This document shows positions 1,023 through 47,228 of a stretch of DNA of 64,000 nucleotides, one piece after another. Under the pieces are notes generated by a model. That model saw nothing but the letters and a program-made list of their open reading frames with translations, ran no database searches and was not told where the DNA came from. Source of the DNA: Tribonema minus (lineage: Eukaryota; Sar; Xanthophyceae; Tribonematales; Tribonemataceae); assembly GCA_017506865.1 (NCBI GenBank), contig JAFCMP010000131.1, positions 124,001-188,000 on the forward strand. Reading direction: 5' to 3'. The translations under genes and the position numbers were made by a program. Numbering within the stretch: the stretch's first letter is position 1; each line of letters opens with the position of its first letter.

Positions 1023-1053
<31 letters not shown>

Positions 1054-11961: not shown

Positions 11962-14900
11962 ATGGCGTCCTTCAGCTTCAGCTTCGGTGACTTCGACGAG
12001 GATGATCTCGCAGAGCTCGCTATCTCAGAGGCTCATGCACAAACATCGCAAGCAACAGCGGCAGAAGCAGAATCATCTGCAGCCGCACATCAGGAGCCGA
12101 GTGCAGCAAATACAGCTTCCACTGCCCCTGCTGTCAAGTCACCGGTGAGCAGGACAGCTGCTGTCATCAATGAGGAAAGTGCACAAGACGCTGCGTTGAG
12201 TAAATCGCCAAAAGCTGCGGCCTCAGAGCCAATACTTCTAACGCAATCAGCAGCACCTGGAATAGCGAGAGAAGCTGCCAGGACAACGGCACCTCAACCA
12301 GCTGCAGCGCCGCCAACACAGTCAGTGGCGTCGAATGCAGCACCGACTCAAACGGAAGCCCAAGAACCATCTACAGAAGCAGGATTCGAACCAGCGGTGC
12401 AGCCAGCAGCAGAGGTCCCGCTGTCGCAGGCAGCACAACCACAGCCACCGACAGCACCACCGGCAGTAAACGCGGCGCCAACGCAAGATCAGGCGCGCTC
12501 TCCACCACCGCCCGCAGCGCGGAAGGCCGCGCCAACCAACTGGGCAGCTCTGGTCAAAGCTCCCCCAGGGCAGCGACAGCCCTCGCAGGCAGCAGCAGCA
12601 GCAGCAGCGGCAGCGGCACCGCTGTCAAAGAGTGGCGCGAGTGCGCGCAGACCCGTATTGGAGAGTCCGCCTCCAGAGCCGCTCTGCGTCTCCGAAGACC
12701 AGTGGCTTGAGCAAGCTCTGGCGGCGCTGGGCCCGTCGTCCAAAGCTAGCGCGTCGCCGGCGCAGCTCGCGAGCGCGCAGCAGCAGCAGCAGCAGAAACA
12801 GGACACGGCTGAGGCGGAGGCGGCGGCGAATGCGCTGTGGCGCGGCCTCGCGTGCAGGGGCATGGTGAACACGGGCAACACGTGCTACAGGCTGGCGGTG
12901 CTGCAGAGCCTGCTGGCGTGCGCGCCGCTGGCGGAGGCGGTGCTCGCGCGCCCTGCGCGCCGCCTGCTCGCCGCGCCCGCCGCCGCGGAGCACGTGCCGA
13001 CGTGGACGGCGCTGGCGCAGTTCTGGCGAGAGTTCTGGGGCATAGGAGCAGCCAACGCCGGCAAGGTGCGCGCTCGCTCGACATGAGTCATGAGTCGTGA
13101 GTAACGTAGCGTCGTCGCTGTCACGAGGCGACACATGCGCGCTTGCTTTCGCGCGCGTGGCGTGTCCCCCAGGACTGTGCTTCTCGATGCGCGCCTGGTT
13201 TCGATGTCTGCTGTGGCTTTGCCGCGTGTTTGGTTGGCAGCGCCGGCACCGTTCAAACACCGCCAGGACAGAGTCTTGTCGCCTCACTTATTCTGTCGGT
13301 TGCCGTGCTGATCGCTGAAGCAGGCGGTGAACCCCCAGGACACACTGAGGCAGGTGCTGGGGAGTTTTAGGGGGGCGGTGGCAGGGGAGCAGGAGGACGC
13401 GGAGGAGTTCCTGGCGTATTTTCTGGGGAAGTTGCACGACGAGGTGGAGCGGCTGGTTAAGAAACAGGCCAAGGATGCCGAGCAACACGTGAGTAGTATA
13501 AGCGCGGCTCAGTGAACAGCATTGAAGTGCTGCCGTATTGTACTGTCGCTATTATGTGTACTGTTGTTTTCAAGAAGCAGGCCAAGGATGCTGAGCAACA
13601 CGTGAGTAGCGGGTCGCGCGCGCGGTCAGCATCATTAGCTGAGCAAACACCATTGAAGTAATGCCGTACTGTGCTGCACTGTACTGTTGCTGTTGCGTAA
13701 TTGTAGGTACAGTTGCGCGAGTGCTGTAACAGCGGCCAAGGACGCCGAGCACCACGTGAGTGGGCGTACACGCGCGCGGCTGAGTGAGCAGCATTGAAGC
13801 GATGCCCTACTGTATTTTCACTGTTACGTATACGTACAGTTGCGCAACGAGTACTTCAAAGTATACTGTACATGTACAGTTGCGTATACTGTAACGGTGA
13901 CCACCGCATGCCCTGTGAAGAAACAGGCGAAGGATGCAGAGCAACACCTGAGTAAAGTAAGCACGGCTTAGTGAACAGCAGTGAAGTGATGCCATACTGC
14001 GCATAAGGCCTACGCATGCGCAGCTGAGTGAACAGTATTGATGTGGTGCCTCAGTGTATTGTTACTGTTGCGTGTACTGTTGCATAACAATATAATGCAA
14101 CAGCGGCAAAGGATGCTGAGCAGCACGTGAGTAGGCGTGCGTGCGCGCGCGGCTGAGGGAGCAGCATCAAAGTGATCCCCTCCTGCATTGTCGAAGTTAC
14201 GTACTTGAAGTATATGTACAGGTGCGTCACAAGTACATACTTACGAAGTACACTGTAACAGCGACGACACAGTTGCTGTTGCGTATAGGTACAGTACAAA
14301 TGCGTACTATATATACTGCAACGGTGTCTACAGTATGTGCTGCCGTTTCCCACCAACTGACGCAACTGCACCGACAGCGCCGCCACTGCTCAGTAGTACT
14401 TGTTGCCACTGCTCAGTAACTGCAGCAGCAATCAGCGACTTGTGTACCCCCCAGCTGCATGCAGTGCATTCTGCATTGCTTGGCGGTTGTCACACTGTGC
14501 AAGTTAGCTGGGTCAAGCTGACAGCAGCAGTCAACTCGCGGCGGTCGTGACGTGGCTGTAGCACCACAGATGGTGGATTGTGGTGTGTCAAGGGGCCCTG
14601 CGAAGGGGCTTCAGAATGGGAAGACTCAGAACGTGTTCACATCACTTCAATGTGAAGTGTGTCATGTTCAAGTCTGCTCGACTGCTTCTGGCTTTATTTT
14701 GATCTCATCAGTGATTCTCAGTGCATCATGCTCAACTGTGCTTCAGGCGTTGGCGAACTTAATCTCACTTCACTCTCTGCTTTCATTGGCGCAATGCAAC
14801 AACATCAGCACGTTGCATGTAGCAGGCCCATGGCAATGTCAGCAATGGCTTGCGGACATTGAACGTTGAGAGTTTCATGCCTACATACATTTGCACATAT

Positions 14901-17900
14901 GCTCGCACACTTTGATGTCTATGAACGCATGTGCGCATGTATCTACACTTGCGTACGTTTGCCCAGCATGGTTGCGCAGACTTCAAATCACAATCACATA
15001 CGCATGTATATACACGCAGGTACGTGCATGCGTGCATACCCATTTACAAGTACTGACGTACATACATGTATGATGCACCTGTCACGCCACTGCGCCTTCG
15101 CAGGCGGTTTTGCAGCAGGCGGCGGTGGACGACGAGTGGCAAGAAGTGGGGAGAGGCGGGGTGGCGGCCGTTGTGAATAGGTGAGCCTTGTGTGCACGCT
15201 GACCCAAGTCAACCTTAACTTTAACAATGTACATACCCTATCCAACTCAATGTCTTTGATGTATGCAACCATGAGGTTGGTGCGCGTTCTGTGTGCATTC
15301 TGGCCCTGACCCTAACCACGTAAACACTGCACAAACGTAACATGAGGTCTAATGCCAGTGTTGTTGGTCAGTGACCAATGGTCACTGAGATCACTTGCAG
15401 CTGTGTAGAAAGCGCAGCACAGGTCATTCATTGCGGGACAGTGCCTATGATGTATGTAAACTAATGACTTTCGATGCCCTGTGCTCCATGTAGGGTTGCA
15501 AAAAAGCGTATTTTGAAGTTTATTGTGGAGTTCAAGTGCCCCGTTTGTGGCAGACTGTATGCTCGGAATTGAGCAGACTCACCGCATGCCCCACAAATAC
15601 GCCCTTCATGCAGCATACTATCATGTTGAAGTTTGCTCACGACGTATTCCTGGTTGCCAAATACGCCCCAAGTACGCCATATTGTGTGGCCAAATACGTT
15701 TTTTTGCAACCCTAGCTCTATGTCACTGAGGACACTCGCAGCTAGAAACGCATTACAGGTCTAATATCTGTGGCATTGGTATGTGCAGCCAAAAAAGTGG
15801 AGTCCAACATCTGTGATGTTGGTATGTGCAGCCAGAAAAACAGAGTGTCAAGTCATGCAATGGGTGGCGTGGCCAAAGCACAGCAGGCGATTGCCCACTG
15901 CTCACACTCTGTGCCCATAGCCGGTAAAAACCCATGGTGCACCATGAGGGCAGTTCTCAGTTGGACTCAAATGCGCCGCAAAAGACGTGCTTCTGTGTGA
16001 TACACTGGTGTACCATTGTTGGTGCTGCACTGCGCGCGCAGAGTTCAAGTGGTCACTGTAGCTCTGCAGCACTACCGCAATTGCACTGCGGCGTGCCGTT
16101 TGCCTTCCAGATGCGCGATTACGACCCAGCGAACTCAGCCATGGACTGTGATAGCATGCCATGTGTGACCATGCCGAAATGGCGCCGTTGATGATCTTGA
16201 AGTTAGTCATGTTCATGTTGGTCACCTTCAAGCCGCAGCCGACTGCGCGCGCACAGCAGCGCCTGATAACACACCTCACGACGGTAACTAACCTCGCAGT
16301 TGAACTTCATCGCTGCGCACTGTGCGGCCGCAGGCAAGCGGAGGCGCGCGCCGCCGCTGTGGAGTCCGTCATCACCCGCGTCTTCCACGGGACGCTGCGC
16401 TCAGAGGCAAGTCACACGTCGCAGTTGTATGTACCATCTTCAGCCTCCGCCCTGACGACGTTCATCTGAATCAAACTCATCAGTTTGCACGTAAAAGGCT
16501 ATGAGTGTTTCAGCCACCTCAGCGCTTGGCGTTGTCAGCGACGCCTCACTGCCGCACACACTTAGGGTTAGGGTTTTGGGCATTGCCGTGGTGCTTTGAC
16601 AGCACTGCTACGTAGATAGCCTGGCTGCGACGATTGCCGCCATGAACAGCGCGAATCGACCTCGTGGCACTCTTGCAATACAAGCGCGCTTGCCGCACTG
16701 CGTGCGTGAGAGCTACACATGGCGTCGATAAGGCATGATTGCGCTCACTCACCCGCGATGGTACTGCCGCCACTGGCGGTGGCAAGGCATAGTTGCGCTC
16801 GCTTTCCCGTAGGTGCATTGCCGCCACTGGCGATCGTTTGCGCTCGCTTACCTGTCATGGCAACATCGCCGCTGCCGCGTCACCCCTCAGGTGCGCTGAG
16901 ACCGCGCCCCGCTCTCCTACGTACGACTCTTGTTTGAAGCCTCGCGCCGAACCTCTGCGCCAATTGTCGCCATCAACAGCGCGAACCTACCCCGTGGCAC
17001 TCTCGCAACACAAGCGTGCACTCCGCGTTGCGTGCGTGAGAGCCCATAAAGCGTCGGTAACTTGTGGTTGCGCTCTCGCTTACCTGTCGCGGCGCCGCAG
17101 CCACTGGCGGTGGCAAGGCACGGTTGCGCTCGCTAACCCGTAGGTGCATTGCCGCCACTGGCAATGGCTGCGCTTGCTCACCTGTCATGGCGCCGCCGCT
17201 GCTGCCGCATGCACCCCTCAGGTGCGCAGAGGCCGTGCCCCCCTCTCCGTCATGGTGGAGCCCTTCCACTGCCTGCAGCTGCCGGTGCCCCCCCCGGACG
17301 CCCCCCCCGCCAGACCCCCCGCTGGCGGCAGTTACAGGGGCGCGCCGCATCGGCCGCCGCCGCTGCAACTGGAGGCGATGCTCGCGGCGTTCTTCGGGGG
17401 GGAGGTGCTGGAGGGGGTGAGGGGGGGGGGGCGGGGGGTCGTGCGCGCGCAGCGCCAGAGCGCGCTGGAGTCGCTGCCGCGCGTCCTCACGCTGCAGCTC
17501 AAGCAGTACGCGTTCCACAGGGCGCACGGCACGGCGCTGCGCACGGGCAGGTGTGTATGTATGTACGCAGCCGACTGGGGGGGAGATATGGAGTGATTGT
17601 TGCGCGGCGCAGGCCGCCGAGCGGCGCCGGCGGTCGCGTGAGGGGCCCCAGCACTACCTCAATTCCTGACTCCATTTGACATCCACATTTCTAGCCCGCC
17701 ATAGCAGACCATATGACATCAGCTTCCACTTCAGTACGCCAGCGCTGCGATCATATCCTTACTTCCTAACTTCAACTCCAACTTGAACTTCACCATGCCT
17801 TCCCCCCCCGTGCGTCGCGCAGGCCCATCGCGTACCCGCTCGAGCTGCGCATCCCCGACGCGCACCTGGGCGCGAAGGCGCGCTCTGACGCTGCCAAGCG

Positions 17901-18644
17901 CGGCCGCACTTACCGCCTCTTCGCTGTGGTGTTGCACTACGGTGCCGCGGGCGCCGCGGCGTCGTCAGGGCACTACACGGCGCTGGTCAGACGTGGCGGC
18001 GGCGGCGGTGGCGGTGATGTGTGGTACGATTGCGACGACAGGTGAGTGGCGCATGCGTCTCCGAGTTGAAGTGAAAGTTGTGCACACTTCGACTGCGGGC
18101 TAGATGAGTGGCAAGCGTGCGCGAGACGCTGATGATTCTGATGGCGCAATGGGGGTAGTTTGATAGGGGTAGTTGATCTTTGCTGAAAAGACGCGCAGCG
18201 AGCACTGGACGGAGCGCTGGTGGTGCGGTGGTGGTGCGGCGTGGCGCGGTGCCGGCGAGGCGCCGCAGAGATCGTGGTAGTTCTGCATGTTGAGCAGTAT
18301 TCGGGTTAGGGTTAGGTTAGGTTTAGCAAAGAGGGCTTCGCTACCGCACCGTACACGATTCGTTCTGAAACACCCGCCCAAAACAGCAGCACATCTACTT
18401 CACACGTACTGCACTTGAGTGCTTCTCAACGAACTGCTCAACAGCACCTGCGTTTTCGTGTGGAGCCAGCATCACATCTGAAGAGGACTCAACGCGAGAG
18501 TAATGGAACACGCCCTCTGCTTCACTCCTCATGCGTGCCTGCAGGGTGATCACGCCGATCGACGAAGCGGACGTCCTGTCGCCGCGGCATGCACACGGCG
18601 CCGCGCCCTACCTCCTCTTCTACCAGCGCCAGCTGCCGGCGTAG
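11962..18644 (+). CDS. USP10: Ubiquitin carboxyl-terminal hydrolase, USP10/Ubp3 type
   Basis: Seven exons: 11962-13065, 13324-13488, 15104-15180, 16334-16406, 17222-17550, 17823-18041, 18545-18644; phases agree and total 688 aa. It removes ubiquitin from proteins as a cysteine protease. Residues 1-290 are Ala/Pro/Gln-rich and disordered. The Cys box is GMVNTGNTCYRLAVLQSLLA (NTGNTC holds the nucleophile); QEDAEEFL follows in exon 2; DDEWQEVG (exon 3) and VESVITRVFHGTLRSE (exon 4) match USP10-specific positions; LPRVLTLQLKQYAF is in exon 5; the His box SSGHYTALV and WYDCDD are in exon 6; and PYLLFYQRQLP ends the fold. Start: first in-frame ATG (MASFSFSFGDFDEDD). Intron 4 starts GCAAGT, a GC-AG intron. 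Intron 2 repeats the exon 2 donor junction and intron 4 repeats the exon 5 acceptor. Confidence 0.88.
13571..14135 (+). repeat. Donor-junction array in USP10-like intron 2
   Basis: The end of exon 2 plus donor (GCCAAGGATGCCGAGCAACAC then GTGAGT) recurs at about 13573, 13734, 13920 and 14104, each followed by similar intron sequence (GCTGAGTGAGCAGCATTGAAG). The spacing is 160-200 nt. Copies keep GTGAGT, except one reading CTGAGT. Confidence 0.85.
16740..17221 (+). repeat. Minisatellite and acceptor-junction copy in USP10-like intron 4
   Basis: CCACTGGCGGTGGCAAGGCA and GTTGCGCTCGCTTACC units repeat through the intron. At about 16880-16920 the sequence CACCCCTCAG-GTGCGC with GCCCCGCTCTCC copies the real exon 5 acceptor at 17221 and the following exon start. 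Confidence 0.75.
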
Positions 18645-20297: not shown

Positions 20298-20436
20298 ACA
20301 AGCACTTTTGCACATCGGCGGCAAAGCACATGTCCTCTGTGACGACGACGCCATCGCATTTCAGCACCGTCGCGTACTGCATCATTTCCAAGCATGCACA
20401 AATATATTTCCACACATGAAACGACATGGAATGTAT

Positions 20437-22488: not shown

Positions 22489-25400
22489 TCACATGACTTT
22501 TTTGGAGGGTGGTACGTCCGTTCGCTTCTCCTGCAGCCACGTCATGAGGCGCTTGATGGAGACCAGGTACTTGCGCTGCGCCTCGTTGTTCATGATGTGC
22601 GCGACGTTGCGGCTCTCAATCTGGTGAACAAGGGGAGAGCGGGGCGGAGAGCTGAGGAAGGCAATGGCGGCAGAGCTGCAAGAGGCAAGAGGGGCGCATG
22701 CCGCGCTATCACAAACGTGCTGGTGGCCGTTGACTGAATCATGACAGTAGCCAAGAGAGCCCTGCAGCGACAAGGTCGTTGAGCCGGGATGAGGCGAATG
22801 GTCAGCTAGAGCTGGCAACAGTGCAAACATGATGCTGGTGCCCCAGTAGTTGCTTGCCATCACGAAAGCAGCCACAGGAGCCCAGCAAATAACATAATCT
22901 CGGTCGCGCACGCTGCAGGCACAAAAATGACGGCACGCGTGGTCGTGCTCGACGTGGGTAGCGCGACCTGCATTAGGGCTAGGGTTACGGTCAGGTTAGA
23001 CGGTGCTACGCCGCCTTGCTGCGGGTTGCTGCTGCCAACAGTACCGCTACAACCCCCTAGTCGCAGCCCAGAAACGCGGGTTCAACGCGCAGCTCTTGTG
23101 GCATCGCCGCAGTCGCACTTTGCGGGGCTGATGTGCAGTAGGCGCATCGCCTAACTGCGCTATCCAGGCCGCTAACAACAATGTTCTGGCAGCCGCGCAG
23201 ACGCGCCCTCACCTTCTCTCGACCGCTGCGCTCGTGGATGCCGACCATGGTCAGCCCAATGGGCCACGGCGCGTTGCCGATGGCGGTGAGCATGTACACG
23301 TCGTGCGCCTTGACAAACTCCCCCTCCTTCATGAAGTTGACCATCTGCGCAGAGGCGGGGGGAAGGGGGGAGGGGGCTGAGCACTGCCGGCGATGCGCAA
23401 CATGGTTTGTAGCACGTTTTCTCGTAACTGCCGATGCACACGCCATTGTGCTGTGCAGGGGGGGGGGGGGGGGGGGGGGGGGGGAGATAACAGCGCTCAC
23501 TGCGGCAAACAGCTTGGGGCAACGCGTGACTATCGCTGCGAAGTGCTGCTCCTTTGCCGAGCTCGGACTGCGCTGGGTCAGGGCTTTGGTGAGGGTTGAT
23601 CGTGCGCGTGCCTCAGGTCAAGAGACACGTGGTCACCAGAACACAAAACACACGTCAGGACCGCCGCAAAAACAGTGACGCTCCGCATGGCGCACGTGCA
23701 AGCGTATATCCACGTCCGCTTGCGCGCAGGTGCTGCGGCAACGAGGGCGCAGCACGCCCTCCCCTCCGTACTTTACAAGTGAAGTTAATGCACGCACGCG
23801 CGTACCTACCTTGACGAGGTTCGCGAGGATGCCGGGGTTGAGTGCGTGCTGCTTGCAGAGCTTGAACATGGGCCGCAGGTAGTCCTTGGACTGCTTCTGC
23901 GTGCGCGTGTCGCGCCGCCCCTGGATGGACCCCTTGACCTGCTCGGGGCGCGCATTCAGGTCCTAAGGGGGGGGCGTGATGGGGGGGGGGAGTGAGCCTT
24001 CTGCGAGGCACGCAGGCCCCGTTCATTGTGACATGGGGACAGGCACTGTGTGTGATAATGCTTTTAAAAAAGCGCGGAGCGACTCGTTAAGAAAGAGAGA
24101 AACGATGGCATGCGCGTGTTGCCTCGCCCCTGCATGAACCCCCTGACCTGCTCGGGGCGCGCGTTCAGGTCCTGAGGCGTGCCACGGTAGGGGGGGGGGG
24201 GGGGGGGGGGGGCTTTTTGCGAAGCGCGCAGGCACTGTTTGTCCGTGACATGAGAACAGGCGCTGTGCGTGAGGATGTAAAGTGAGGGCGGAGAGACTCG
24301 TACAAAGAGAGAGACGATGGCATGCGCGTGTCGCGAGCCGCCTGGATGGATCCCTTGACTTGCTTTGCGCGCGCGTTCAGGCTCTGACGCGCTGCCAACA
24401 CGCACACAGCGGAGGCTAGGTTGGGGGTTAGGGTTAAAACTAGGGTTACACGGTGGGCGCGCGCAGCGCGGTGACAGTGGAGACTGCGGGCGCGATCGAC
24501 TGCAACCAACCTATTGGGATGCAAGTTGTGACAGACGATCATGCATCTTAAGCGTAGGTAGATTTCAGCGTAGGTAGATCTCAAGTGCAAGAACACGAAA
24601 CCTGCTCGCCACCATGCACAGTGCCAAACATTGCAGAATCATGGACCGCACTTAAAATCAGCTACGCTTTCGCTACCGAGCCGCCATAGCCGGCTTCTTC
24701 CCCTAAGTGGGAGCACTCCACCTTACTGTTTGTTGATGTAAAACATCGTGGTCTGGCTTCACTCCTACATGCAATGTTCATGCTCTCTGCAAACATCACA
24801 TCTCCTATGAAGCATCGTGGCAAACCCTCATCCCCAACCAACATTGATGCACAGTCACCGGAGACGCGAAATGCACGCACTTGACAGTGGCAGAATGTGC
24901 GCACTTGAGAGCGGCAGCAACTGATCACACTGGTTGTGCGAGGGCACAAGCTGGCGACGGCAGCGTGTTCATGCAGAACAGCAGCGACCAGCCTCTTCCC
25001 GCTGCTTCAGCAGGGTCTTGAAGAACCGACGCACATGCGCGTCACTGACCGCTTCCCACCGCTACACCAAACCAAAATGTATATATATACATACTTATAC
25101 TCATCTGACATCATGAGCATCACCATGCGAGCGTCCTGACCTCTTCCCACTGCTTGAGCAGGGTCTTTTGGATTATTGCCGCACAAACGTGAAGTTGCTG
25201 ACGGGACCATGACTCTTACCATGCCTGTCGAGACCGGCGATTACCATCGATGAATGTGCATGCAAGCGCGCCGCCCATGCGCGCACTGACCTCTTCCCAC
25301 TGCTTGAGCAAGGTCGCAAAGAACTGCCGCACGTACACGGCACTGAATGAACCTCTTTCAAACAATTTGAACCAACACCTCTGTGGATCAGTAATCTCTT

Positions 25401-32500: not shown

Positions 32501-35500
32501 CGCCCCCGGTCACCAACGCTCAACTCCGCGCGGGTCGCCTTCTTACAGACCCCCCCTCTCCCCCCCCCCTGCCCCTGTTGTGGCAACTGTCATCAAATGC
32601 TCAGGTGGCCTTCTACGCGATGCTCAAGGAGCCGCTGGCGCCCTTCTACATTGCATACATACCAACCCACTGTTGCACCCCACGTCATCAACGCGCTCCG
32701 GTCCGCTCGAGTCGCCTTCTGAATACGTACCCCCCCCCCCCCCGCTTCCCCCTGCCCCCCCTGTTGTGGCCACTGTCATCAAACACTCCGCGCAGGTCTC
32801 CTTCTACGTCACATACATTTCAACCCTCTCTTGCGCCACATTACATATCAACCCCTCTCCCCCCCCCCCCTGCCCCCCTTGTTGTGGCAATTGTCATCAA
32901 CGCTCAGGTGGCCTTCTACGTGATGCGCAAGGAGCCGCTGGTGCCCTTCTACATTGCATACATACCAACCCACTGTTGCGCCCCACGTCATCAACGCGCT
33001 CCGCTCCTCTCGTTCGCCTTCTTTATCATCAAATACTTACCAACCCCCGCTCCCGTCATCAACGCTCCGCGCGCAGGTGGCCTTCTATGTGATGCTGAAG
33101 GAGCCGCTGGCGCCCTTCAAGCCCGTGCCCAAGTTCCTGTGCATCAAGGCAGTGCTGTTCCTGTCCTTCTGGCAGGGCGTCGTGGTGGCGGGGCTCGCAC
33201 GGCTCCACCTCATACACGCCATCGGCGGCTGGAGCAAGGAGAATGTGGAGACGGGGATTCAGGTGGGGCGTTTGTAGAATTTTGAGACCGTGTGCGTAAA
33301 CTTGCGGCGCGGAATGTCGAGACCGTGTGCATGCCTCATACGCGCCATCGGCGGTCGGAGCAACGAGAAAGTGGAGACGGGGATTCAGGTACTTTGATTG
33401 GCAAGTATTTACAGAATGTCGAGAGCGTGCGCGCGAACGTGCGCTGCGGACTGTCGAGATCGTTCACGTGAACATGGCGCTGATATTGATATGGGGTCGT
33501 GGTGGCGGGCCTAGCACCTGATACACGCCATCGGCGGCTGGAGCAAGGAGAACGTGGAGACGGGGATTCAGGTGGGGGTAGCAAAGTGTGGAATGTCGAG
33601 AGCGTGCCGTACGTGTAAACTTGCGCTGCGGAATGTCGAGACCGTGTGCGTACCTCATACGCGCCATCGGCGGCTGGAGCAAGGAGAACGTAGAAACTGG
33701 GAGTCAGGTAGGGGTAGGTAGGTATTGGTGGAATGTCGAGAGCGTGTCGTGCGTTTAAACTTGCGCTGCGGAATGTCGAGATCGTGCACGTAAACTTGGC
33801 GCCGATATTCATATGGGGTCGTGGTGGCGGGGCTCGTGCGGCTCCACCTCATACACGCCATCGGCGGCTGGAGCAAGGAGAAGGTGGAGACGGGCGTTCA
33901 GGTAGGTGGGGGGCTTTTGTGCTTCAGAGTAGCGGTACAGTGGAGTCGTTCACGTGTAGGCATGTTGGTAGAAGTAGGTAGAAGTATACTTCAGAAGTAT
34001 TCCTTTTTTTTAAGTATGCACATACAGAACACAATTTGTCGAGAACATTCGCGTAGGCGTGCGCCGCGGAATGTCGAGACCGCGTGCGTAAACGCGGCGC
34101 CGGTATTGCAGTGAGCTGAATCAGACTCGGAATGTTGAGAGCGTGCGCGTGGTGAGCTTGGCGCCGACGCAGTTCACTTGAACCCGTCGAGAGTTCAATC
34201 GAACGTGCCGCGGAATGTCGAGATCGTGCGCGTAAACTTGGCGCCGATATCGCAGTGAATTCGCTCGGAAGGAGACGGACATTCAGGTTGGTGAGGGCGG
34301 CTCTGTAAAATGTGTTGAGAGAGTGCGCACGTGGTCAGCTTGGCGTCGATGGAGTTCACTTGAACCTGCAGGGAGTTTACTTGAACTTGCTGGGAGTTCA
34401 CCTGGACTTGGCGGAAGCTCATCCCCCATGTGCTTGGAGTTTGAATCTGCGGGAAGTGCACTTGTGTTGCTGGGAGTTCATGCGAGCTTCTGCCGAGACT
34501 TCACCGTTGCGCGCCGCCTGTTTCAGCGTGAAAGAGGCTCACGCTTCGTATCATGATTGACAGCTGTATGTAAAATGCCGACCTCTGCATGGTGGGCTGA
34601 CCACTGGAGCATTGCGGACGCCATCTGCCACGTGTCCGTCGCGCTGCTAATCTCCCTAAACAGTTGTTTTCAATAGCACTGCACATCTCAGTTCTGCCTT
34701 GGTTTATCTGCACTCACACACACACGCCTCCGTGTCAAAGTTCGCAACATGCCACCCTCCGCTCACGGCTATTACCCCCCCCCCCCCCTTCCCCCCTCGT
34801 CCCGCCCCCCCCCCTCCCCCCCCCCCCCCCCTCCAGGATCTTCTCATCTGCACGGAGATGGCCATTGTGGCCACGGCGCACACCATCGCGTTCCCCGTGG
34901 GGCCGTACGTGGGCGGCGCCGCGCGACACTCCGGGCACATCCTGGAGGACCACTTTGCACACCACTGCGCCGTGCGCGACTTCAACGAGGTCATGCCGGT
35001 GCTGCTGCCGTCGAGGTGAGCGCGCAGTGGACGTGTACAGTACAGACCGTATAAGTCTTGATACATTATGTACTAAACACGCTTAATATGCTCTAAGTAT
35101 CGTGTTACATACCGTTGCACCACTGCGCCGGCGCGCCTTCAACGAGGTCATGCCGGTGCTGCTGCCGTCGAGGTGAGAGTGCGTACAGTACATACCGTAT
35201 AAGAGTTGTGGTACATACCATTGCACCACTACGCCGTGCACGACTTCAATGAGGTCATGCCGGTACTGCTGCCGTCGAGGTGAGCGCGCGTTGGATGTGT
35301 ACAGTACATATAATGGCCTTCTGCACTTACGCGCGTTCAAGAGCACTGTCACTGGTTGCTGAATCTCCTGTGTTGGGCTACCAGCTGGAGCTGGCCTACG
35401 GAACACGTGAGAGCTTTCCATGCTGAACTCCCATGCCTCGCTGATAAGCTTGCACACACACACAGAAGTCTTTTGGTTCCTGTGGGTATGGTGGCACTAT

Positions 35501-36232
35501 TTGACTCGTGGCCAGTTGCTGCAGCAGCGACGACCACGGTTATTGCTGGAAGGCACTGGCGGCTGACCACACCTTTTCACCTGCAGCTCTACGATCTTTT
35601 GAATCGTTTCCATGAATCATTTTTACGCTACAAACTGGCCATGGGCAGTGTGCGCGCGGCACTGACCCCCCCCCCCCCCCCCCCCCCCCATGCGTCCATG
35701 GCGCTGCAGCTTCTGCGGTTGGGCCTCGCGACCATCTCTGTGCGCCCGCCGCGCAGAGTAGAGGAGACCTATGGCAGTTGTGATCATGAATATCAACATA
35801 CACACACTATACTTTTTCTATTGGCTCTTTGCACCATGGCTGCAGGTGATGTGTGTGCTCTGCTGACCCCTGCCCCCCCTTTACCCCCCCCCCCCCCAAT
35901 GCTCTGCTGATACGCCCCCTCCCCCCCCCCCCCCCCCCCCCTGCACACGCAACAGCTTCCGGCCGGGCCCCGCGACCATCTCCGTGCGCCTGCCGCGTGG
36001 CGAGGAGGAGGGCTACCGCGTCGAAGAGAGCCCTGCGCGCAACGGCAGAGAACCCTTTCTCAAGAGCGAGTTTAGCTGGCGCGTGCTGCACGGCGACCGC
36101 GGCGACGCGTGGGGCGGCGTCGGCACGGAGGAGGCGGGGCTCGGCGCGCTGCGCGCGAGCCTGCTGGGCATGCGCGGCGACGGCGGCGAGGACGGCGACG
36201 GCGGCGAGGAGCGCGATGATGCAGAGGGATGA
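29577..36232 (+). CDS. TMEM184/DUF300 (LAZ1-like) multi-pass membrane protein
   Basis: Six exons: 29577-29765, 30138-30373, 31673-31817, 33077-33262, 34837-35015, 35956-36232; 403 aa, phases agree. The family (human TMEM184A-C, plant LAZ1) is a seven-helix membrane protein of endomembranes, related to the Ost-alpha transporter subunit. Seen here: helix 1 IAWVVAGLFSLAALLISVHL; ILWMVPIYAVSSWLGLRF; RDCYEGYALYLFLALMVAYL; GRFKEGDFDPRKGW; KFLCIKAVLFLSFWQGVVVA; DLLICTEMAIVATAHTIAFP; PY and DFNEV before an acidic Gly-rich tail (GGEDGDGGEERDD). An in-frame ATG at 29538 would add 13 residues. Each of introns 2-5 holds copies of a bordering splice junction; intron 1 does not. Confidence 0.9.
30511..30805 (+). 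repeat. Donor-junction copy in TMEM184 intron 2
   Basis: AAGCTCGGTACGCTGCAGTA then CAGGTATGT at 30514-30546 copies the exon 2 end. The intervening GATGGCTGGCTCTCAG...GACACAAGCCGC block (30405 and 30670) is also repeated. Confidence 0.8.
30575..30672 (-). repeat. Dispersed ~250-bp repeat, partial inverted copy D
   Basis: Reverse complement matches the second half of the 19165 copy, including GCAGCAGCGGCGGCCACGG, TTTGACGGCCAACCACACC and TAGAGCTCTAC. Confidence 0.7.
31480..31600 (+). repeat. Acceptor-junction copy before TMEM184 exon 3
   Basis: CGCGCAGCGTGATCAAGCCC with TCGTGCGCCACGATGGCGCT copies the acceptor and start of exon 3 at 31673, with about 100 nt of shared upstream intron (ACTCGTGCATG, CCCTAATGCA). 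Confidence 0.85.
31949..32245 (+). repeat. Donor-junction array after TMEM184 exon 3
   Basis: GTGGCCTTCTACAGCCTG then GTGCGT recurs at about 31953-31976, 32077-32100 and (shortened) 32214-32236, each preceded by CGCAG. Spacing is about 120-135 nt. The exon-derived core is nearly invariant while the spacers differ. Confidence 0.88.
32455..32960 (+). repeat. Acceptor-junction array before TMEM184 exon 4
   Basis: CAGGTGGCCTTCTACG and AAGGAGCCGCTGG copy the exon 4 start at about 32604 and 32908; two more decayed copies (CGCGCAGGTCGCTATCTACG, CGCAGGTCTCCTTCTACG) lie at about 32458 and 32790. Shared pyrimidine-rich intron flank is duplicated with them. Confidence 0.87.
33331..34300 (+). repeat. 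Donor-junction array after TMEM184 exon 4
   Basis: The exon 4 end (CGCCATCGGCGGCTGGAGCA, GTGGAGACGGGGATTCAG) plus GGTGG recurs at about 33341, 33526, 33658 and 33856, and as a decayed copy near 34268. The flank GGAATGTCGAGA...GTGCGTAAAC repeats with it. Confidence 0.88.
35105..35290 (+). repeat. Donor-junction array after TMEM184 exon 5
   Basis: TTCAACGAGGTCATGCCGGT plus GCTGCTGCCGTCGAG and GTGAG appear at 35139-35177 and 35241-35285 in addition to the real donor at 35016. Confidence 0.88.
35366..35630 (+). repeat. Dispersed ~250-bp repeat, copy C
   Basis: Ordered match to the 19165 copy from CTCCTGTGTTGGGCTACCAG through ATCGTTTCCATGAATC. It lies in TMEM184 intron 5. Confidence 0.78.
35690..35765 (+). 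repeat. Acceptor-junction copy before TMEM184 exon 6
   Basis: GCAGCTTCTGCGGTTGGGCC then TCGCGACCATCTCTGTGCGC copies the exon 6 start at 35956. Both are preceded by a long C tract (about 20 C at 35668 and again before 35941). Confidence 0.8.
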
Positions 36233-40085: not shown

Positions 40086-43000
40086 ATGGCGCAAAACCAG
40101 GGTAACAATGGAGGCAACAACGGCAATGCTGCTCGCCCCAGGCACCAAGTGAACCAGCACATCGAGTTCATCGTGAAGGTGATCCTCTCGACATCGCCAT
40201 TGCAGCCGGCGTGGAGCATGACTGTATTTTGGAAGTGCTCATAGATGACGTTACTGCTGGTCGCACAGTCTGAGGGCTGTAAAAGGTTAACCTGTTTTGC
40301 ACCTCCCAGATTAACGTATTTGAAGTTGGCCATCGCCATTTTTATGCGCTGCAAGCGCATCTGCGCTGAGTGTGTTCATCGATACGTGGTGAATATCGTG
40401 TCGTAAGCGCTCATAAGACTTCCCAGCGAGCCTGAACCTGTTGCGACGAGAGCATTCGGCCGCCAGTGACCTGGCAGCTTCAGGTTGAAGTGCGCGATAG
40501 CCGGGCCGGGCCGGGCCGGCAAGCAGGCTTTTTTCAGGTTTCGCCGCATATCCCTCATGGCTGACGTACCAAACAGGAGCGGCATTTCCCCCGGAAAAAG
40601 ATGAGCAGCTTGACCTCAATTATGGTTGTCCTCAACTTTGCCTCTGATTCCATGTCTTCACTGCGCTGCTGGCAGTCAGGCCTCCGCTTCTGTACAGCAT
40701 CCACATTCAGTGGCTGCTGTCGCTGCATCGCCCCCGCCCCCCACCCCTCCTACTGAATCTCTCACCACCTTCCTCTGCGCACTCAAGATGTCTGTCGTAA
40801 GGCAGCGGAGGACCTGAAATTCCAAGAGCAAAGGCGAGCTCAGCAGCTGCCGTCACTCCCGCGGTGCTCGTGCTACGCGTTGCTCCTGCCCCCTCCCACT
40901 GACCTCCCCCCATGCCGCACACGCGCATCCCGACGCGCAGGCAGCGGAGGACCTGATCCTGGAGGGCAAGGAGAGGACGGTGACGCGCGTGCAGGCGGGC
41001 ACGCCCTATACGTGCCTCATGCTCAAGAACCAGCGCTTCTCCAGCCTGTTCCGCCACTACGCCAAGATCCACGGGCTCAAGAAGGAGGACCTGACGTACT
41101 TCTTCACGGAGGGCCTGCGCAACGAGGTGAGCGCTGCCGCTTTCAGCGCCGTGCGCCGCGCGCTCGTGACAAGCGCGTCGACGAGCAGCATCGTACGTGA
41201 ACGCGCGGTGCGGCGCGCGCGCGCGTGTGCGAGTCAACCGCGTGAGGAGACCGCGGCGGCGGGGCGCTGATCTGATTCACACGCGTTGGTCAACACGGTT
41301 TTCATTTAAAGTCCTGCGTACGCGTTGGGGCGTCCTCAGGTGGACGAGCGGTCCACTTTGGGCTTGTGCTGTCAGCCGCGCTCACATCGAGTGCGCTGCG
41401 CGCGAGCCACTTGTCATGACCGCTCCTCAGATCTGCGCACGCTGCGACAGACAGCGGTCATCTGAGGCCGTGCACAGCGTCACGCGCACTGTGCCCTCGT
41501 CGCAAGCACACCCCCGTGGTATTGTCGTCCGGTCTGCGTAGGCGCACAGCTCTCCACGACGCCGTCGGCGCTGGCGGGCACCCCATGGCCTTGCACTACA
41601 TGCTCAATCACAGCCCGTAAAGATGCTATGTGCGTCAATGATGCCATTTAATCGACAGCAAGCACTCAGAGAGAGGCCTTGCATACGTCCTCATCTACAT
41701 ACTGCGTCCATGGCCTCGCATAGGTGCTCAATTACCACCTGCAAGTACATGCTAAAGGAGTCGATGATGCCATCATACCATCACTGGTAGCAGCAACTCA
41801 ATCAAGTCCGGTCACGCGCCGCCGCCGCATGACACCCACTCCATGGCCTTGCTTATGTAGCCGCTCAACTACAAGCTGTAAAGGTGCCAGAGGAGTCGAT
41901 GATGTCATCAAGACCATTCGCTGGCAGCAGCAACTTGCGAGCGCCGGTCACGCGCCGCCGACGTCGCAGGACACCCGAAACCGCTCAGAAAACAAGAGCA
42001 GATCTGAGCTGAACCGTTACGCTTGACAAAATACATGTTTGATTCCGGCGCCTGTGCAAAAATCATCAAGTATATGACTCAATGATTCCATCATACCATC
42101 ACCGGTGGCGGTAACTTATGAGCGCCGGCCACGCTGCGCCGCCGTTGCAGGACACCCCGGAGTCCGTGTACCTGCAGGCGCGCGACGAGATCATTGTGAA
42201 GCGGCGCCGCCTCAAGTCCGCCACGGAGGACGCGGACGCGGGCGAGGACGAGGGCATCGCCAAGGACCGATACATCGCCAACGTGAGTTGTGTTCATGTG
42301 CGCTTTCGCCTTCCTTGAGCACTGCAAAGGACAGATACATGGCTGACGTGAGTGCGAGCGAGGGATGTGAGCGTCGCCAAGGACCGATGCGTCGCCAACG
42401 TGAGTGCGTGTTCGCGCGCGCTTCGCTGGTCTTTCGAGGATGGGTTGCAGGCCCCGCTTTCACACTTTCGTTCAGACTGCAGCCAGGGCTGCGTCCGAAC
42501 GCTCATTCATCTTGCGTGAGCGGAGGACGCCGGTGAGGAGCGAGGGCGTCGCCAAGGACAGATGCATCGCCAACGTGAGTGTGTCTGTGCGCGCTTCGCT
42601 GATCTTTCTGGGTTGTGGGCCCCGCTTTCACGCTTTCGTTCAGACTGCGACCAGGGCTGCGTCCGAACGCTGATTCACATTGCGTGAGCGGAGGACGCGG
42701 GCGAGGGAGTGAGGGATAGATGGCCAACGTGGGTGTGTTTGTGCGCACTTCCGCCGGTCTTTGACGGACAGTTCAAGATGCGCGTGGGCCGTTGGAGTGA
42801 ACCTTAGTCACTCCGATCGGTGACTCGCATTGCGCGAGCGGAGATGTACGAGCGGAGTCCGCGGGCGAGGACGTGGGCGTCGCTGAGGACAGGTGCATCG
42901 CCAAAGCGAGTATGCTCGTGCGCAACGCGCTGGTCCTTGAAGTGTTTTTCTGGGCGCCGCTTCCGTGCTCGAGACCCCGCTTTCACGCTTTCGTTCGCAC

Positions 43001-46000
43001 TGCGACCAGGGCCGTATGTAGGGGGGAACGCCCATTTGCATGGCGAGACGGGTACATTGCCAGCGTGAGTGCTCGTGCGCGCTTCTCTGGCCCTGGAAGG
43101 GTGGTCCTAGGCCCTGCTTTTACGGTTTCACTCACGTTGCGACCGGGGCTGTTCCTAACGCTGATTCATGGATTCATGGCATGAGCGATTCGTCGCCAAC
43201 GTGAAGCGCTCGTGATTCATTTACTGATTTCATTTACACATTGGTGCTCTCAAAAAGTAATGCAGTGCCCATTTACTGAACCGTTCTGTTGCTTGCACAG
43301 GAGGCATGTCACTGCTGTCCTCTGAAGGGCGCTGTCAAGGGTACGCTTTGCCGGTCATGCTGCGCGCGCTGATAAACTGCACGGAGCGCGCAAGCCCCGG
43401 AATGCATACTTCGAGCATCTCGCCGACATTCACTGCGCACAGGCCTTGCCGCGCCCTGTCACACATGGTTAACCCGCAAGGCCTACTCTCGCACTCCATG
43501 AAGCTTGTTTCAGGGTTAGGGTTAGGGTTAGGGTCAGGGTTAGCTGACACGCGGTGGAGACCGCCCTTGCCGTGCTAAAACTCGCGCTGCTTGCTTGCAG
43601 ACCGGCTTCCGCCACGGCTCATGTAGCGTGGCAGGCGAGCCTTGCGCCAAACAGCCGCTGCCGCCGCTGCCTCACGCTGCTTGATGGGGATCATGACGTG
43701 CTCCTAGCGTCCTCCTAACGTTCACAACGCCGCCGCCGCGATATTGCCGCTGCTGCGTGCAGATTTCGGCCATGCGCCACCAGGAGGACCACATGGACGT
43801 CACCTTCTTCGTGGGCGAGGTGAGTCGCCAGCGCTCAGCGCGATGTTTGTTGAGTCATCAGTGCTCAGATAGTACTTGCGAAGTATGTGAGTCATCAGTG
43901 CTTAAAAAATGTGAACTCGTCAGAGCTCAGCGATGTTGAGTCATCAGCGCTCAGTATCAAGTCATCAGCGCTCAGCAAGTCAAGTCACCAGCGCTCAGCA
44001 ATTTTTGTCATCAGTGCTCAGCGATTTGGAGTCATCAGTGCTCAGCAATTTTCATCATCAGCGCTCAGTGCTCAGCAATGTAAGTAGTCAAGAGTCTCAG
44101 CGATCAAGTCATCAACGCTCAGCGATGTCATCATCAGTGCTCAGTGATATAAGTCATCAGTGCTCAGCGGTGTGAGTCATCAGCGCATCAGCAATGTCAA
44201 CTCATCAGCGCTCAGCGATGTCAAGTCATCAGCGCTCAGCGACGTGCAGGTCATCTCAGCGCGCTCAGCAAAATCAGTCCCCAACTATCAGCACTCTTAG
44301 CTGCGCGTCATCGGTACGGGCGACGCTCCGCTTGCGGTTGACGCTCCACGCGCTCATCACTGTCGCACCGCTGCCCCCGCGGCTCAGGGTTTCGGTCAGC
44401 GCTGCGCTTAGGGTCGTCGGGCGCGTGATTGAGGTCCATGCGCGTGTGTGCGCCCGCGTCGTCTTCGCAGGTTTCGCGTGTTGAGTACTTCAAAAACACA
44501 TATCAAAACAAGCCGCCCAGCCGTAGCACCTCAACAAGCCGCCCAGCCGTAGCACCTCTGATGATAGTCCCCACCCCCCCCCCTCCCAGCCCTGTCTCAC
44601 TGAATAGATCGTACAAACGCAGGCTCTACTAAGCTAAGACTTTTGTTCAGGTTCACCAAAAGCAAATTTGCAATCGAGCTTCTTTTCCTGCTCTAGCAAG
44701 TTCACTTTCATATTGCGCAATCAGTTCATTTGATTGAGATACAAAACTGGAAGCATTTGCTTCAGTTAATTCAATTGAGAAAAAAATGCTTTAAAAAGCA
44801 TTTGCTAAATTTCTGCGTCATTCCCGCAGGCGCGGACGGAGGTGAAGGCCCACAAGTTCATCCTGGTGTCGCGCGTGGACTACTTCACGAACATGTTTGG
44901 CGGGTCGATGCGCGAGGCGATCACGGGCGAGGTCAACATGGAGCACCACGAGCCCCCTACCGTGCGCCTCATGCTCGAGTACCTGTACACCAACAGCATC
45001 AAGGACCTGTACAAGTGAGCCCTCCCGCAGTTGGCTCGGCGGTCAGTGACCGTTTGACAGTGTAGATGGCGCATAGGTCACACGTTTGACACAGCACATG
45101 TGCACACGAGCTGCATGTTTTGTTTTTCATAGGGTTTCCGCCCCTCCAGCGGAAGTGAATAAAGAACAAGTGAGCTCCCCCCCCCCCTCCCCCGACCCAC
45201 TTCATGACCTGTTTCCAACGCCTCGTGAGCTGCCCCCCCCCCCCCGACCCACCCTTATGTGACCTGTTGCCAGCATCTTGTGTGTGGCCGAGGGGCACGC
45301 CATGGCTTCTTGCCCAGCGGCTTGTGTGCTGTTGAGGGGTTAAAACCAGGAGCATCAAGGGCCGTAAGAGTACCTGTACGCCGACAGCATTAAGGCCCTG
45401 TACAAGCGAGCTGCCTTGCTGCGCCCCGCCCGACCCACCTCATGACACTTAGTGGCGCTTTTGCCAGCGACTCGTGTGTCGTTGAGGGGTTGGCATGCGA
45501 GTGCGTACGCCAACCAACAGCATGAACGAGCGATGGCGCTGGCCCCGCCCGCCATACCATGTTGGCGATCCATACATTGAAGTACTGAAGTGCGACGTCG
45601 ACAAGGCGTGCTGTGCGGGCACACCAGCAGCATCATGGAGATGTACACATTGCTCGTATAAAGTGCTCTGATGCCCCCCGCCGCACGCAAGCCGCAGTGT
45701 TTGTAGGTTGTGTACAGCGGAGGGATGACAGGTTCAAGAGCCTGGGTAACGTGCGCACCAAAAGCGTTGACAACCTGCTGAAGTGAGTGAGTGCCGCAGT
45801 TAACGATCATAGTGCCTCCTCCCCCCCATCCCTCCCCCCTACCTCCCGCCCCCCCCCCTCGGCGCAGGTGCACGGCGGACCACGTGGCAGCGCTCCTGTC
45901 CCTGGCGGACGAGTACCAGATGGCCGACATGAAGAGGGTCGTGGAGACGGTCGCCAAGGGCATGGTGACCGCGGCCAACGTGGCGCGCCTCATCTCGGCG

Positions 46001-47228
46001 TCCACGGAGTTCCACGCCGACGACCTGCACCGCACGTGCATGACGTTCGTGCAGAAGAACCTCAGCACGTGCTCGCGCACGCTGGTGCGTTCTCTCGTAC
46101 ACATGAGCATCGCGCATACTCGTAAGAAATGTGTCTTTGGATATGGTATGTAGGTTAGAAAGGGCCATGTGGCGTAGCTCATTGCGGGTTCCACAGAGTT
46201 CCATGCGGACGACCTGCATCGCACTTGCATTACGTTCGTGCAGAAGAACCTCAGCACGTGCTCGCGCACGCTGGTGCGTTCTCTCGTACACATGAGCATC
46301 GCGCATGCTTGCACGTATACGTGACGGTTTTCGAATCTGACATACATGAGTGTATTCAGGTTAGAAAAGGGCAATGTGGCATGCCTCATCTAGGCGCGTG
46401 CATGGAATTTGTGCAGAAGAACCTCAGCACGTGCTCGCGCACGCAGGTGCGCGCGCGGCTCTTATTCTCGACAGCACTGTGTATACTTGTATGTATTGTC
46501 TTCTGTTACAACAAACGGCAGTTGCATGCTGATTTCCGTTTGCACGCTTGAGAGTTACGGCAGTTACACTTGTCGGCAGACAACCACTTCTAGCAGCACA
46601 TGACTGGAGTCGGTCTCTTGTTGCATTGATCATCTTGACGTCTACCTCTGTCGGTGTGGAGGAACAGGCTAGTGAGCAGCAGCTGTACGTAGCAACATCT
46701 TCAATTCAACATGCATGGTGCATGTAGTTAGAAAAGGGCGATGTGGACCTCAGCACGTGCTCGCGCACGCAGGTGCGTGCATCTGCCCTTGTTAGCGTTC
46801 ACCGTTTTGAGGTGGTGGCTGTAGTAATTTTTTACCTTGAAGCTCGTAGCTTTTGTCGCTTTTGCCATGTATATACGTTAACCATGTTGCCCTCATCCGC
46901 CGCACAGCGTATCTCAGACTGGCAGCTTTCCTCCTCCAGCTGCAGCATCAAGCCTCTGAAGCCACATCTGCAAATTGCCGCACCAGCATTCTCCCCCCCC
47001 TTCCCCAACTGCAGTCTTCAGTGCCACCTCTCTTGCTCACGGCCTACTCCCCCCCCCCTCGCCCCCCCCCCCCATCTCCCCTCCTCTCAGGAGTTCGGCA
47101 GCGAAGTCAAGGCCGCCCCGGAGCTCGCCCTGAACATCATGCAGCACATAAGCGGAATGATCCCGGAGTCCGGCCCCACGAACCCCAAGAAGCGCCGCCG
47201 CGCCGACAACGAGGTGGTCGACCCCTGA
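40086..47228 (+). CDS. SUMO-like domain fused to BTB/POZ domain, nuclear
   Basis: Seven exons: 40086-40178, 40941-41126, 42151-42282, 43763-43819, 44830-45014, 45868-46084, 47091-47228; 335 aa, all phases agree. Residues 1-18 are Asn/Gly-rich. Residues 20-112 follow a SUMO/Rad60-like beta-grasp: IEFIVK, then SLFRHYAKIHGLKKEDLTYF (helix and following strand) and DTPESVYLQARDEIIVKRRR, the counterpart of the SUMO pattern ending in DxIEV. There is no C-terminal Gly-Gly, so it is not a conjugated modifier. Residues 138-220 are a BTB domain (MDVTFFVGE, VKAHKFILVSRVDYFTNMFG, EPPTVRLMLEYLYTNSI), followed by a BACK-like helical region (LLSLADEYQMADMKRVVE) and a nuclear signal PKKRRRAD. BTB proteins often act as Cullin-3 adaptors; a link to SUMO-type recognition is inference. 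Confidence 0.85.
40797..40850 (+). repeat. Acceptor-junction copy before SUMO-BTB exon 2
   Basis: AAGGCAGCGGAGGACCTGA at 40799-40817 copies the exon 2 start at 40941, with shared following GGGCAAGG/AGCAAAGG and flank. Confidence 0.7.
41540..41985 (+). repeat. Acceptor-junction array before SUMO-BTB exon 3
   Basis: GAGCGCCGGTCACGCGCCGC and GTCGCAGGACACCC (about 41938-41976) copy the exon 3 acceptor at 42150. Weaker copies occur near 41800-41835 and 41550-41585, each next to CCATGGCCTTGC and CTCAA..CTGTAAAG flank. Confidence 0.78.
42320..43210 (+). repeat. Donor-junction array after SUMO-BTB exon 3
   Basis: The exon 3 end and donor (CAAGGACCGATACATCGCCA then ACGTGAGT) recur about seven times, near 42326, 42380, 42556, 42716, 42885, 43050 and 43190. 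Several copies carry GAGGACG/GGCGAGG exon sequence before and CGCGCTTCGCTGGTCTTTC, CCCGCTTTCACGCTTTCGTT flank after. Spacing is 50-180 nt. Confidence 0.88.
43510..43545 (+). repeat. Interstitial telomere-like tract
   Basis: Four to five units of GGGTTA (one GGGTCA). Shorter or more degenerate tracts are at about 3894, 6535, 16562, 18302, 22973, 24417, 26370, 26993, 27255 and 27545; nearly all lie in introns or repeat units. Confidence 0.85.
43822..44290 (+). repeat. Minisatellite of the donor-proximal sequence after SUMO-BTB exon 4
   Basis: About 18 units of GTCATCAGCGCTCAGCGATG with variations, roughly 20-30 nt each. The first unit is the intron's own start (GAGTCGCCAGCGCTCAGCG), so the array has grown from immediately behind the donor. 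Confidence 0.88.
45350..45420 (+). repeat. Donor-junction copy after SUMO-BTB exon 5
   Basis: GAGTACCTGTACGCCGACAG then CATTAAGGCCCTGTACAAGC copies the exon 5 end (EYLYTNSIKDLYK). The splice GT has become GC (AAGCGAGC). Further weak copies may exist near 45500 and 45630. Confidence 0.75.
46160..46785 (+). repeat. Donor-junction array after SUMO-BTB exon 6
   Basis: The exon 6 end recurs at about 46160-46312 (some 150 nt, including GAACCTCAGCACGTGCTCGC, the donor and 35 nt of intron), 46395-46455 and 46745-46780. Each unit is introduced by GTTAGAAAAGGGC.ATGTGG. Confidence 0.9.

Follow-up and report, generated by a model that had tools for sequence, protein, structure and literature searches.

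How does an intron come to hold several diverged copies of its own splice junction? The question is raised by a 64,000-nucleotide stretch of DNA from the yellow-green alga Tribonema minus (contig JAFCMP010000131.1, positions 124,001 to 188,000; hereafter the window, whose own numbering is used below), in which the introns of four genes, USP10-like, PRP18, TMEM184 and SUMO-BTB, carry such copies. Long introns are usually attributed to transposons, and introners, in which intron change is likewise driven by repeats, form dispersed families of related elements. T. minus is culturable, and its transformation has reportedly been achieved in one study. A preliminary description of the window counted extra copies at about nineteen junctions and proposed either a process of intron growth or a set of decoy or recursive splice sites. 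We report that many T. minus introns appear to have been lengthened by repeated copying of a short, border-spanning piece into the intron, a border-anchored mode of growth for which we found no earlier description in the literature.

Results

The gene models were rebuilt, using a home-made gene finder. The USP10-like gene (11962..18644, plus strand) has a Pfam UCH domain and an open frame across all seven exons (11962-13065, 13324-13488, 15104-15180, 16334-16406 with a GC donor, 17222-17550, 17823-18041 and 18545-18644). PRP18 (22489..28030, minus strand) has five exons (27597-28030, 25758-25932, 23810-23962, 23213-23344 and 22489-22620), an open frame and a Pfam Prp18 match over exons 2-5; the preliminary exon numbers were one too high, the arrays themselves being present. 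TMEM184 (PF03619; 29577..36232, plus strand) has six exons (29577-29765, 30138-30373, 31673-31817, 33077-33262, 34837-35015 and 35956-36232), of which exons 1-5 are residue-identical to the T. minus NCBI protein P0001, except for a terminal R where the NCBI model runs into the donor; exon 6 is supported by P0002 and is consistent with a brown-alga homologue. A PDB search with TMEM184 gave no match, and no relatives of it were present in the viral contigs searched. SUMO-BTB (40086..47228, plus strand) has seven exons (40086-40178, 40941-41126, 42151-42282, 43763-43819, 44830-45014, 45868-46084 and 47091-47228), an open frame and Pfam BTB over exons 2-6; the Pfam support is for BTB, "SUMO" being the preliminary name for a putative SUMO-like part. 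Among the CCT genes also used below, the borders of CCT_L034 are approximate, as is the last donor of CCT_L032, which lacks GT/AG.

Each junction was represented by a probe of 30 exon and 12 intron nucleotides, which was searched in the adjoining intron; a copy had to reach the higher of 17 and the best score of 100 dinucleotide shuffles plus 1. Significant copies were found at 17 of the 42 splice junctions of the four genes. In the USP10-like gene the exon-2 donor array (13456..14203) comprises the real junction and four copies, and the exon-5 acceptor has one upstream copy (16625..17248), both as first described. The same agreement was obtained, after renumbering, at the PRP18 exon-1 donor (four copies, 26327..27672), exon-2 donor (four with the corrected exon end, 24983..25837) and exon-3 acceptor (two, 23899..24397); the exon-2 acceptor (25890..26266) has one copy where two had been counted. 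In TMEM184 the counts held at the donors of exon 2 (one copy, 30345..30549, with an intron-only repeat of the same region running on to 30781), exon 3 (three, 31796..32345), exon 4 (four, 33176..34390) and exon 5 (two, 34960..35308) and at the acceptors of exon 3 (one, 31278..31713) and exon 6 (one, 35666..36015), and at the exon-4 acceptor (32436..33118) three copies rather than four reach the threshold. SUMO-BTB has up to seven copies at the exon-3 donor (42222..43169), three at the exon-6 donor (45973..46780) and a single weak one (score 18) at the exon-2 acceptor, as described, and one to two at the exon-5 donor (44977..45411; two by our count, one previously). Two of the junctions originally listed dropped out: the repeat at the SUMO-BTB exon-3 acceptor (41753..42157) touches the junction without an exon-edge match, and the minisatellite assigned to the exon-4 donor (43848..44298) begins about 29 nt past it and contains no exon sequence. 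Only a few of the junction arrays are picked up by TRF, probably because the units have diverged.

Copies of a donor had been said to lie strictly downstream and copies of an acceptor strictly upstream, and introns on the wrong side indeed contain a copy for 0 of 34 testable junctions in the four genes, first-exon donors and last-exon acceptors having no such intron. This polarity is forced by tandem duplication and is evidence for neither of the two proposed readings; placement at junctions is not so forced. The core observation extends beyond the window: in about 226 kb of loci picked without regard to repeats (hereafter blind loci), copies occur at 40 of 170 predicted junctions (donors 23/83, acceptors 17/87), compared with 1/171 for wrong-side introns and 1/115 for exon-middle probes (p = 1.4e-12 and 2.5e-9 for the excess). 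Across nine genes, direct copies were found at 38 of 109 junctions and inverted copies at none of the 109. The units are direct and head to tail, as in a tandem repeat array, with a median spacing of 155 nt (quartiles 121.5-190). Rates differ widely between genes, from 1/14 in CCT_L034 and 1/9 in CCT_L032 to 7/10 in TMEM184 and 8/12 in CCT_L033. Among 324 rows from four Pfam searches, checked by eye, eight matches are nested to within a residue in the profile range of a neighbour, and seven of these have the predicted polarity: downstream copies share its end (C5, C511, C246) and upstream copies its start (C135, C51 twice, C479), the exception (C434) sharing neither edge.

The arrays are also placed at junctions when the exons are hidden. 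Because 39 repeat clusters were detected from intron sequence alone, detection was not helped by conserved exons; 34 of them hold exon-edge sequence (31) or touch a junction (3 more), where 7.9 were expected, with 16/18 in the window genes (expected 3.2) and 18/21 in the CCT genes (expected 4.7). All 18 clusters containing a pair with at least 85% identity lie at junctions (3.8 expected), and with the null odds multiplied by five none of 200,000 simulations reached 34.

Intron length follows copy number (length = 582 + 175 x copies; r = 0.74, n = 55 introns of the nine genes), the median being 936 in the 29 introns with copies and 519 in the 26 without. With a rise of about 175 nt per copy, the arrays would account for much of the lengthening. 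An alignment of unit extents in the same analysis partly overran the original junction, and of that analysis only the regression and the clean row of the PRP18 exon-1 family are used; in that family the exon extents are 76, 76, 57 and 76 nt. Several families have such common breakpoints, which indicates that copying takes place between copies as well.

Per cluster, the overlap with the exon edge is 21-140 nt. Conservation within units is 0.90 in the exon part and 0.83-0.86 in the intron part, in keeping with the earlier impression of better-kept cores, but such a difference is to be expected when one of the two sequences compared is a conserved exon. Of the 24 families with three or more copies, 18 lose identity to the exon with increasing distance and 3 gain it (p = 0.0015). 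When just the two extreme copies are compared, the nearest is the more exon-like in no more than 28 families of 46, with 14 reversed and 4 ties (p = 0.044). Since the copies are direct, tend to look less like the exon the farther away they lie and for the most part have indels that break the frame, their sequence would mark them as intron DNA in decay and not as decoy sites or alternative exons.

Discussion

The best reading of these results, and one that we regard as reasonably probable, is intron lengthening via tandem duplication seeded at exon-intron borders. Of the two readings first proposed, it is this one that stands, given that blind loci and CCT genes behave alike, that placement far exceeds random and that intron length tracks copy number. 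We infer that a segment of about 100-200 nt across a donor or acceptor, with some 20-140 nt of exon and the adjoining intron, would be duplicated head to tail; as the outer copy would stay the working splice junction, the new copy would fall silently inside the intron. Further rounds would extend the array, tending to keep the most exon-like copy beside the re-copied exon edge, while older copies, farther inside the intron, would decay under no visible constraint. The driver that we favour would be a replication slip or DNA lesion connected with transcription and splicing at exon edges, at a paused polymerase or R-loop. We propose only tentatively that exon edges are singled out for tandem duplication by splicing, or by a polymerase that has paused at the splice site, with introns growing outward from junctions; the data leave splicing and transcription as a putative cause only. 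Weighing against border-seeded growth are the wide differences between genes, the common breakpoints within families, the modest contrast between nearest and farthest copies, the stop codon that has a copy, and a per-base repeat coverage that has no peak at junctions.

Splicing would have no role if duplication occurred anywhere and arrays needed homology to expand. An undecaying exon edge, being re-copied, would then keep its arrays alive, and intron-only arrays would die. Such a model needs neither a new enzyme nor coupling, and it fits both the distance gradient and the codon-position signal: copy-copy differences reach 24.0% at third positions against 13.7 and 14.0% at first and second positions, as if the exon had been sampled at different times. 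Under this model, however, start and stop codons should have arrays as well, and these have a copy in 1 of 19 cases compared with 61 of 246 junctions (p = 0.038), and in the four window genes in 0 of 8 compared with 17 of 42 (p = 0.026), samples that are small and partly chosen by coding score. Gene-finder ends alone (1/4 and 1/8 with a copy) were too few, and ends were therefore picked by coding score (20 rows) plus known genes (11), with 36232 and 28030, present in both sets, counted once. Four scoreless rows were dropped, as were the stops 18045, 35019, 45018 and C223b 9437, which sit just past a known or predicted donor, and two starts that fall within known exons (33092 and 45920); of these six, 35019, 45018, C223b 9437 and 33092 score at least 20 and the other two less. 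The final ends are ten stops, one with a copy (20 nt exact), and nine starts without any; at least one of the 19 is false, since the C5 start 6434(+) overlaps the C5 6394-6708(-) frame. On this evidence we consider that a conserved seed without splicing is possible but rather unlikely.

Alternatively, duplication might be even over introns and its link to junctions only apparent, exon-internal duplications being purged and introns being short. The per-base repeat coverage made this look likely, as it has no junction peak in the blind loci or the window: in the blind loci it is 26% (donors) and 17% (acceptors) over the first 30 intron nt and mostly 14-25% and 11-21% farther in, falling to 7% at 400-600 nt from donors, and in the window it is 19-39%. 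The junction excess is visible only when whole arrays are counted, but at that level even placement failed (34 of 39 clusters against 7.9), and the 18 of 18 clusters with young pairs are not easily explained by short ancestral introns. We therefore judge even placement improbable.

It is very improbable that selection maintains the copies as functional decoy, backup or recursive splice sites. Of 89 donor copies 78 retain GT, and of 53 acceptor copies 44 retain AG; per base, GT (0.94) exceeds most of the following intron positions (0.74-0.90 at +3 to +12), yet neither GT nor AG (0.93/0.87) is clearly better kept than the exon-derived neighbours (mean 0.90). Indels in the exon-derived parts have a length divisible by three in only 7 of 57 cases, the copies become poorer with distance as though they aged, and of the 10 window exons that bear donor arrays 6 lack a final AG, so that AG|GT recursive sites are impossible among their copies.

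Alternative or mutually exclusive duplicated exons, to which the third-position peak in exon-copy differences (9.0, 9.2 and 18.4%) and a CCT copy with a near-perfect 37-residue frame (L033 5618-5728) might point, are scarcely credible, since the copies contain an exon edge and not an entire exon complete with open frame and both splice sites, the other 50 of the 57 indels break the frame, the annotated TMEM184 protein contains no copy, and silent change in the exon itself can explain the third-position signal. An assembly artefact would be expected to give near-identical copies and is unlikely here: most listed repeat pairs are about 65-95% identical, across different genes and contigs.

The proposed border-seeded duplication resembles several known systems. 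In intron gain by tandem genomic duplication of AGGT, two AGGT copies in exonic sequence come to flank a newly formed intron, and the tandem duplicate likewise includes splice-site motifs and is absorbed without mRNA change (reviewed in PMC3443670). That process is intron birth, after which the donor region of an intron should resemble its acceptor region, whereas in T. minus existing introns lengthen: such a match was found in 0 of 55 introns at a score of at least 18, with TMEM184 intron 3 (17) the sole near case, and in 8 of 2674 other pairs. Internal tandem repeats across an exon-intron border also occur in recently duplicated human genes, with 27 intron modifications in segmentally duplicated genes, 66% of them with alternative-transcript support (PMC2812944); T. 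minus differs in that the genes are unrelated and conserved, the units are diverged and the DNA gives no sign of transcript change. Introners are dispersed between genes, whereas exon edges of other genes matched the T. minus arrays in 0 of 196 sampled trials, and on this exon-edge comparison an introner or other mobile intron is unlikely. Minisatellites likewise consist of direct head-to-tail units, but here the splice junction itself serves as the first unit, and the arrays are bound in their position to exon edges.

Much of the difference in length between introns of these nine genes goes with local tandem duplication anchored at exon edges. If the process is coupled to splicing, gene expression would be linked to a directional mutation process, a new force on genome architecture, and introns might, tentatively, hold a dated series of past exon-edge states; if the conserved exon is the seed, arrays are predicted at every border between conserved and free sequence. 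Under either driver, the copies may form a fossil record of exon sequences.

Junction copies in the window

Tribonema minus is a xanthophyte, a relative of the brown algae, with a genome of 158.2 Mb, and the window lies within contig C131 (JAFCMP010000131.1; 194,553 bases). Pfam bears out the earlier identification of the USP10-like (UCH), PRP18 and BTB genes. Exons 1-5 of TMEM184 match the NCBI protein residue for residue except for its terminal R, where that model runs into the exon-5 donor, and exon 6 is backed by a brown-alga homologue. A GC-AG intron follows USP10-like exon 4 (window 16407). Window 113-1469 and 4429-5805, 4.3 kb apart and 82% identical over ~1.4 kb, are both overlapped by long open frames and are probably a tandem gene duplicate.

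When the window was compared with itself, all 100 local repeat pairs were direct and none was inverted. A significant copy of the exon-intron border was present in the adjoining intron at 17 of 42 junctions in the four window genes, versus 0/34 in the intron at the other end of the same exon (wrong-side). Most junction-by-junction counts of the preliminary description were reproduced, with some exceptions. Its strict polarity is a consequence of tandem duplication: duplication across a donor keeps the first donor in use and puts the second inside the intron, and duplication across an acceptor is the mirror image.

Copies beyond the window

Nineteen loci were picked by position, blind to repeats, and four were added later. 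Probes were exons of at least 60 nt and score at least 25, low-complexity sequences removed, predicted by a small home-built gene finder trained on the four window genes; exons outside the window are predictions, except those of the CCT genes, which were placed with a Pfam profile. Together the blind loci (~226 kb) and CCT genes (~34 kb) represent 0.16% of the genome.

The first 19 loci contained 258 direct versus 22 inverted repeat pairs, the latter confined to five loci. At predicted exons of the blind loci, copies accompanied 23/83 donors and 17/87 acceptors, versus 0/85 and 1/86 on the wrong side and 1/58 and 0/57 for probes from exon middles. Four blind loci share the window's contig, and in an earlier run three of these, upstream of the window, supplied 12 of 37 positive junctions, which makes the blind sample partly dependent on the window. 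Copy frequency differs greatly between genes; in five CCT genes, 22/67 junctions had a copy (1/9, 8/12, 1/14, 6/16 and 6/16). One upstream CCT exon-edge copy (L033, reverse complement, 5618-5728) has a near-perfect 37-residue open frame and may be either of recent origin or in use as an exon. Rad60-SLD/ubiquitin-like coding matches occur in tandem arrays at G000:C5 254-260 kb and C115 74-79 kb (L001-L008).

Placement of arrays

Repeat coverage per base shows no sharp junction peak. In the blind loci the 30 intron nt nearest the junction are covered to 26% at donors and 17% at acceptors. Deeper positions mostly reach 14-25% and 11-21%, respectively, with a low of 7% at a donor distance of 400-600 nt; the window shows 19-39%. 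Coverage extends into exon edges and dies away by 200-300 nt inside exons. Beyond 2 kb from any predicted exon it amounts to 9.2% in the blind loci versus 0/10,406 bases in the window. Taken alone, this profile would suit even placement with purging of exonic duplications.

The preliminary description had proposed comparing repeat placement with random expectation, and at the level of whole arrays the junction excess is clear. Counting whole arrays, 36/49 clusters overlapped an exon edge, versus 13.2 expected. Because a conserved exon makes its own copies easier to recognise, the search was repeated with exons removed. Exon-edge sequence was then found in 15/18 clusters in window genes and 16/21 in CCT genes, and one and two further clusters, respectively, reached the junction, giving 34 touching clusters versus 3.2 and 4.7 expected under a rough null that takes present intron length minus the array's own growth. 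With the null odds raised fivefold, 0/200,000 simulations reached 34, and none of 196 cross-gene trials of the exon-edge match produced a false positive. Every one of the 18 clusters that contained a pair at least 85% identical touched a junction (3.8 expected). Five clusters did not touch one; among them, the cluster of SUMO-BTB intron 4 began 66 nt from its donor in this run.

Spacing and divergence of copies

Across 77 families the nearest copy lay a median 104 nt from its probe, and successive copies were spaced by a median 155 nt (quartiles 121.5-190). Intron length followed 582 + 175 x copies (r 0.74, 55 introns), with medians of 936 with copies versus 519 without. In families with at least three copies, exon identity dropped with distance in 18/24 and climbed in three (mean rho -0.50); among 46 comparable families the nearest copy was more exon-like than the farthest in 28, less so in 14 and tied in four. 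Shared breakpoints at PRP18 exon 1 show that copies are also made from other copies.

Differences at codon positions 1, 2 and 3 were 9.0, 9.2 and 18.4% between exon and copy, 13.7, 14.0 and 24.0% between copies, 5.8, 6.3 and 8.2% for changes private to one copy, and 1.2, 0.4 and 3.5% for the exon only. Even private changes favour third positions (odds 1.39, p 0.0017). Base composition may be the reason, and it must contribute to the other figures as well. The larger third-position excess between copies fits an exon sampled at different times, its silent sites changing meanwhile.

Indels in exon-derived parts of copies break the frame in 50/57 cases. GT is retained in 78/89 copies and AG in 44/53; per base, GT (0.94) stands above most following intron positions, not clearly above the exon-derived mean (0.90). 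We therefore interpret the copies as intron DNA in decay.

Telomere-like TTAGGG-type runs lie in introns and between genes (window 3895, 24430, 26375, 26990, 27260, 27555 and 43512), and several array units of PRP18 intron 1 carry one. Window 20112-20197 is a perfect 42-nt tandem duplication within an apparent long inverted repeat, judged by eye.

What seeds the arrays

Two explanations survive. Arrays may be seeded by a lesion or slip at exon edges tied to transcription and splicing; alternatively, the exon edge may be merely sequence that does not decay and so keeps its own array alive. Their expectations diverge at start and stop codons, where conserved sequence borders on free sequence without splicing. 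Copies accompanied 1/19 gene ends versus 61/246 junctions (p 0.038), in a small gene-end sample chosen partly by coding score and leaving out six scored rows (stops just after a known or predicted donor, or starts inside known exons); in the four window genes the counts were 0/8 versus 17/42 (p 0.026). The sole gene-end copy among the 19 belongs to a stop codon at C511:400001-420000 (L030+L031, joined position 12091), whose surroundings recur as an exact 20-nt match ~156 nt downstream. From this small sample, the test leans towards seeding linked to transcription and splicing.

Comparison with known systems

Intron birth by tandem duplication has its own, different signature (PMC3443670), and the introns examined here lack it. 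At TMEM184 intron 3 (window 31785-33100) the donor and acceptor regions are alike over ~33 nt (score 17); GTGGCCTTCTA is present in both flanking exons, and recombination through it is possible.

The literature searched, with most subscription-journal papers outside its reach, yielded no description of an intron composed of repeated copies of its own junctions. The nearest anatomical precedent is in human genes, where tandem repeats occur at exon-intron borders on a small scale, often with alternative transcripts (PMC2812944). A 2025 transposon study of Ectocarpus describes tandem repeats as relatively even over genome site classes (PMC12477816), so that the junction pattern of Tribonema minus is perhaps not a general feature of the brown-algal line.
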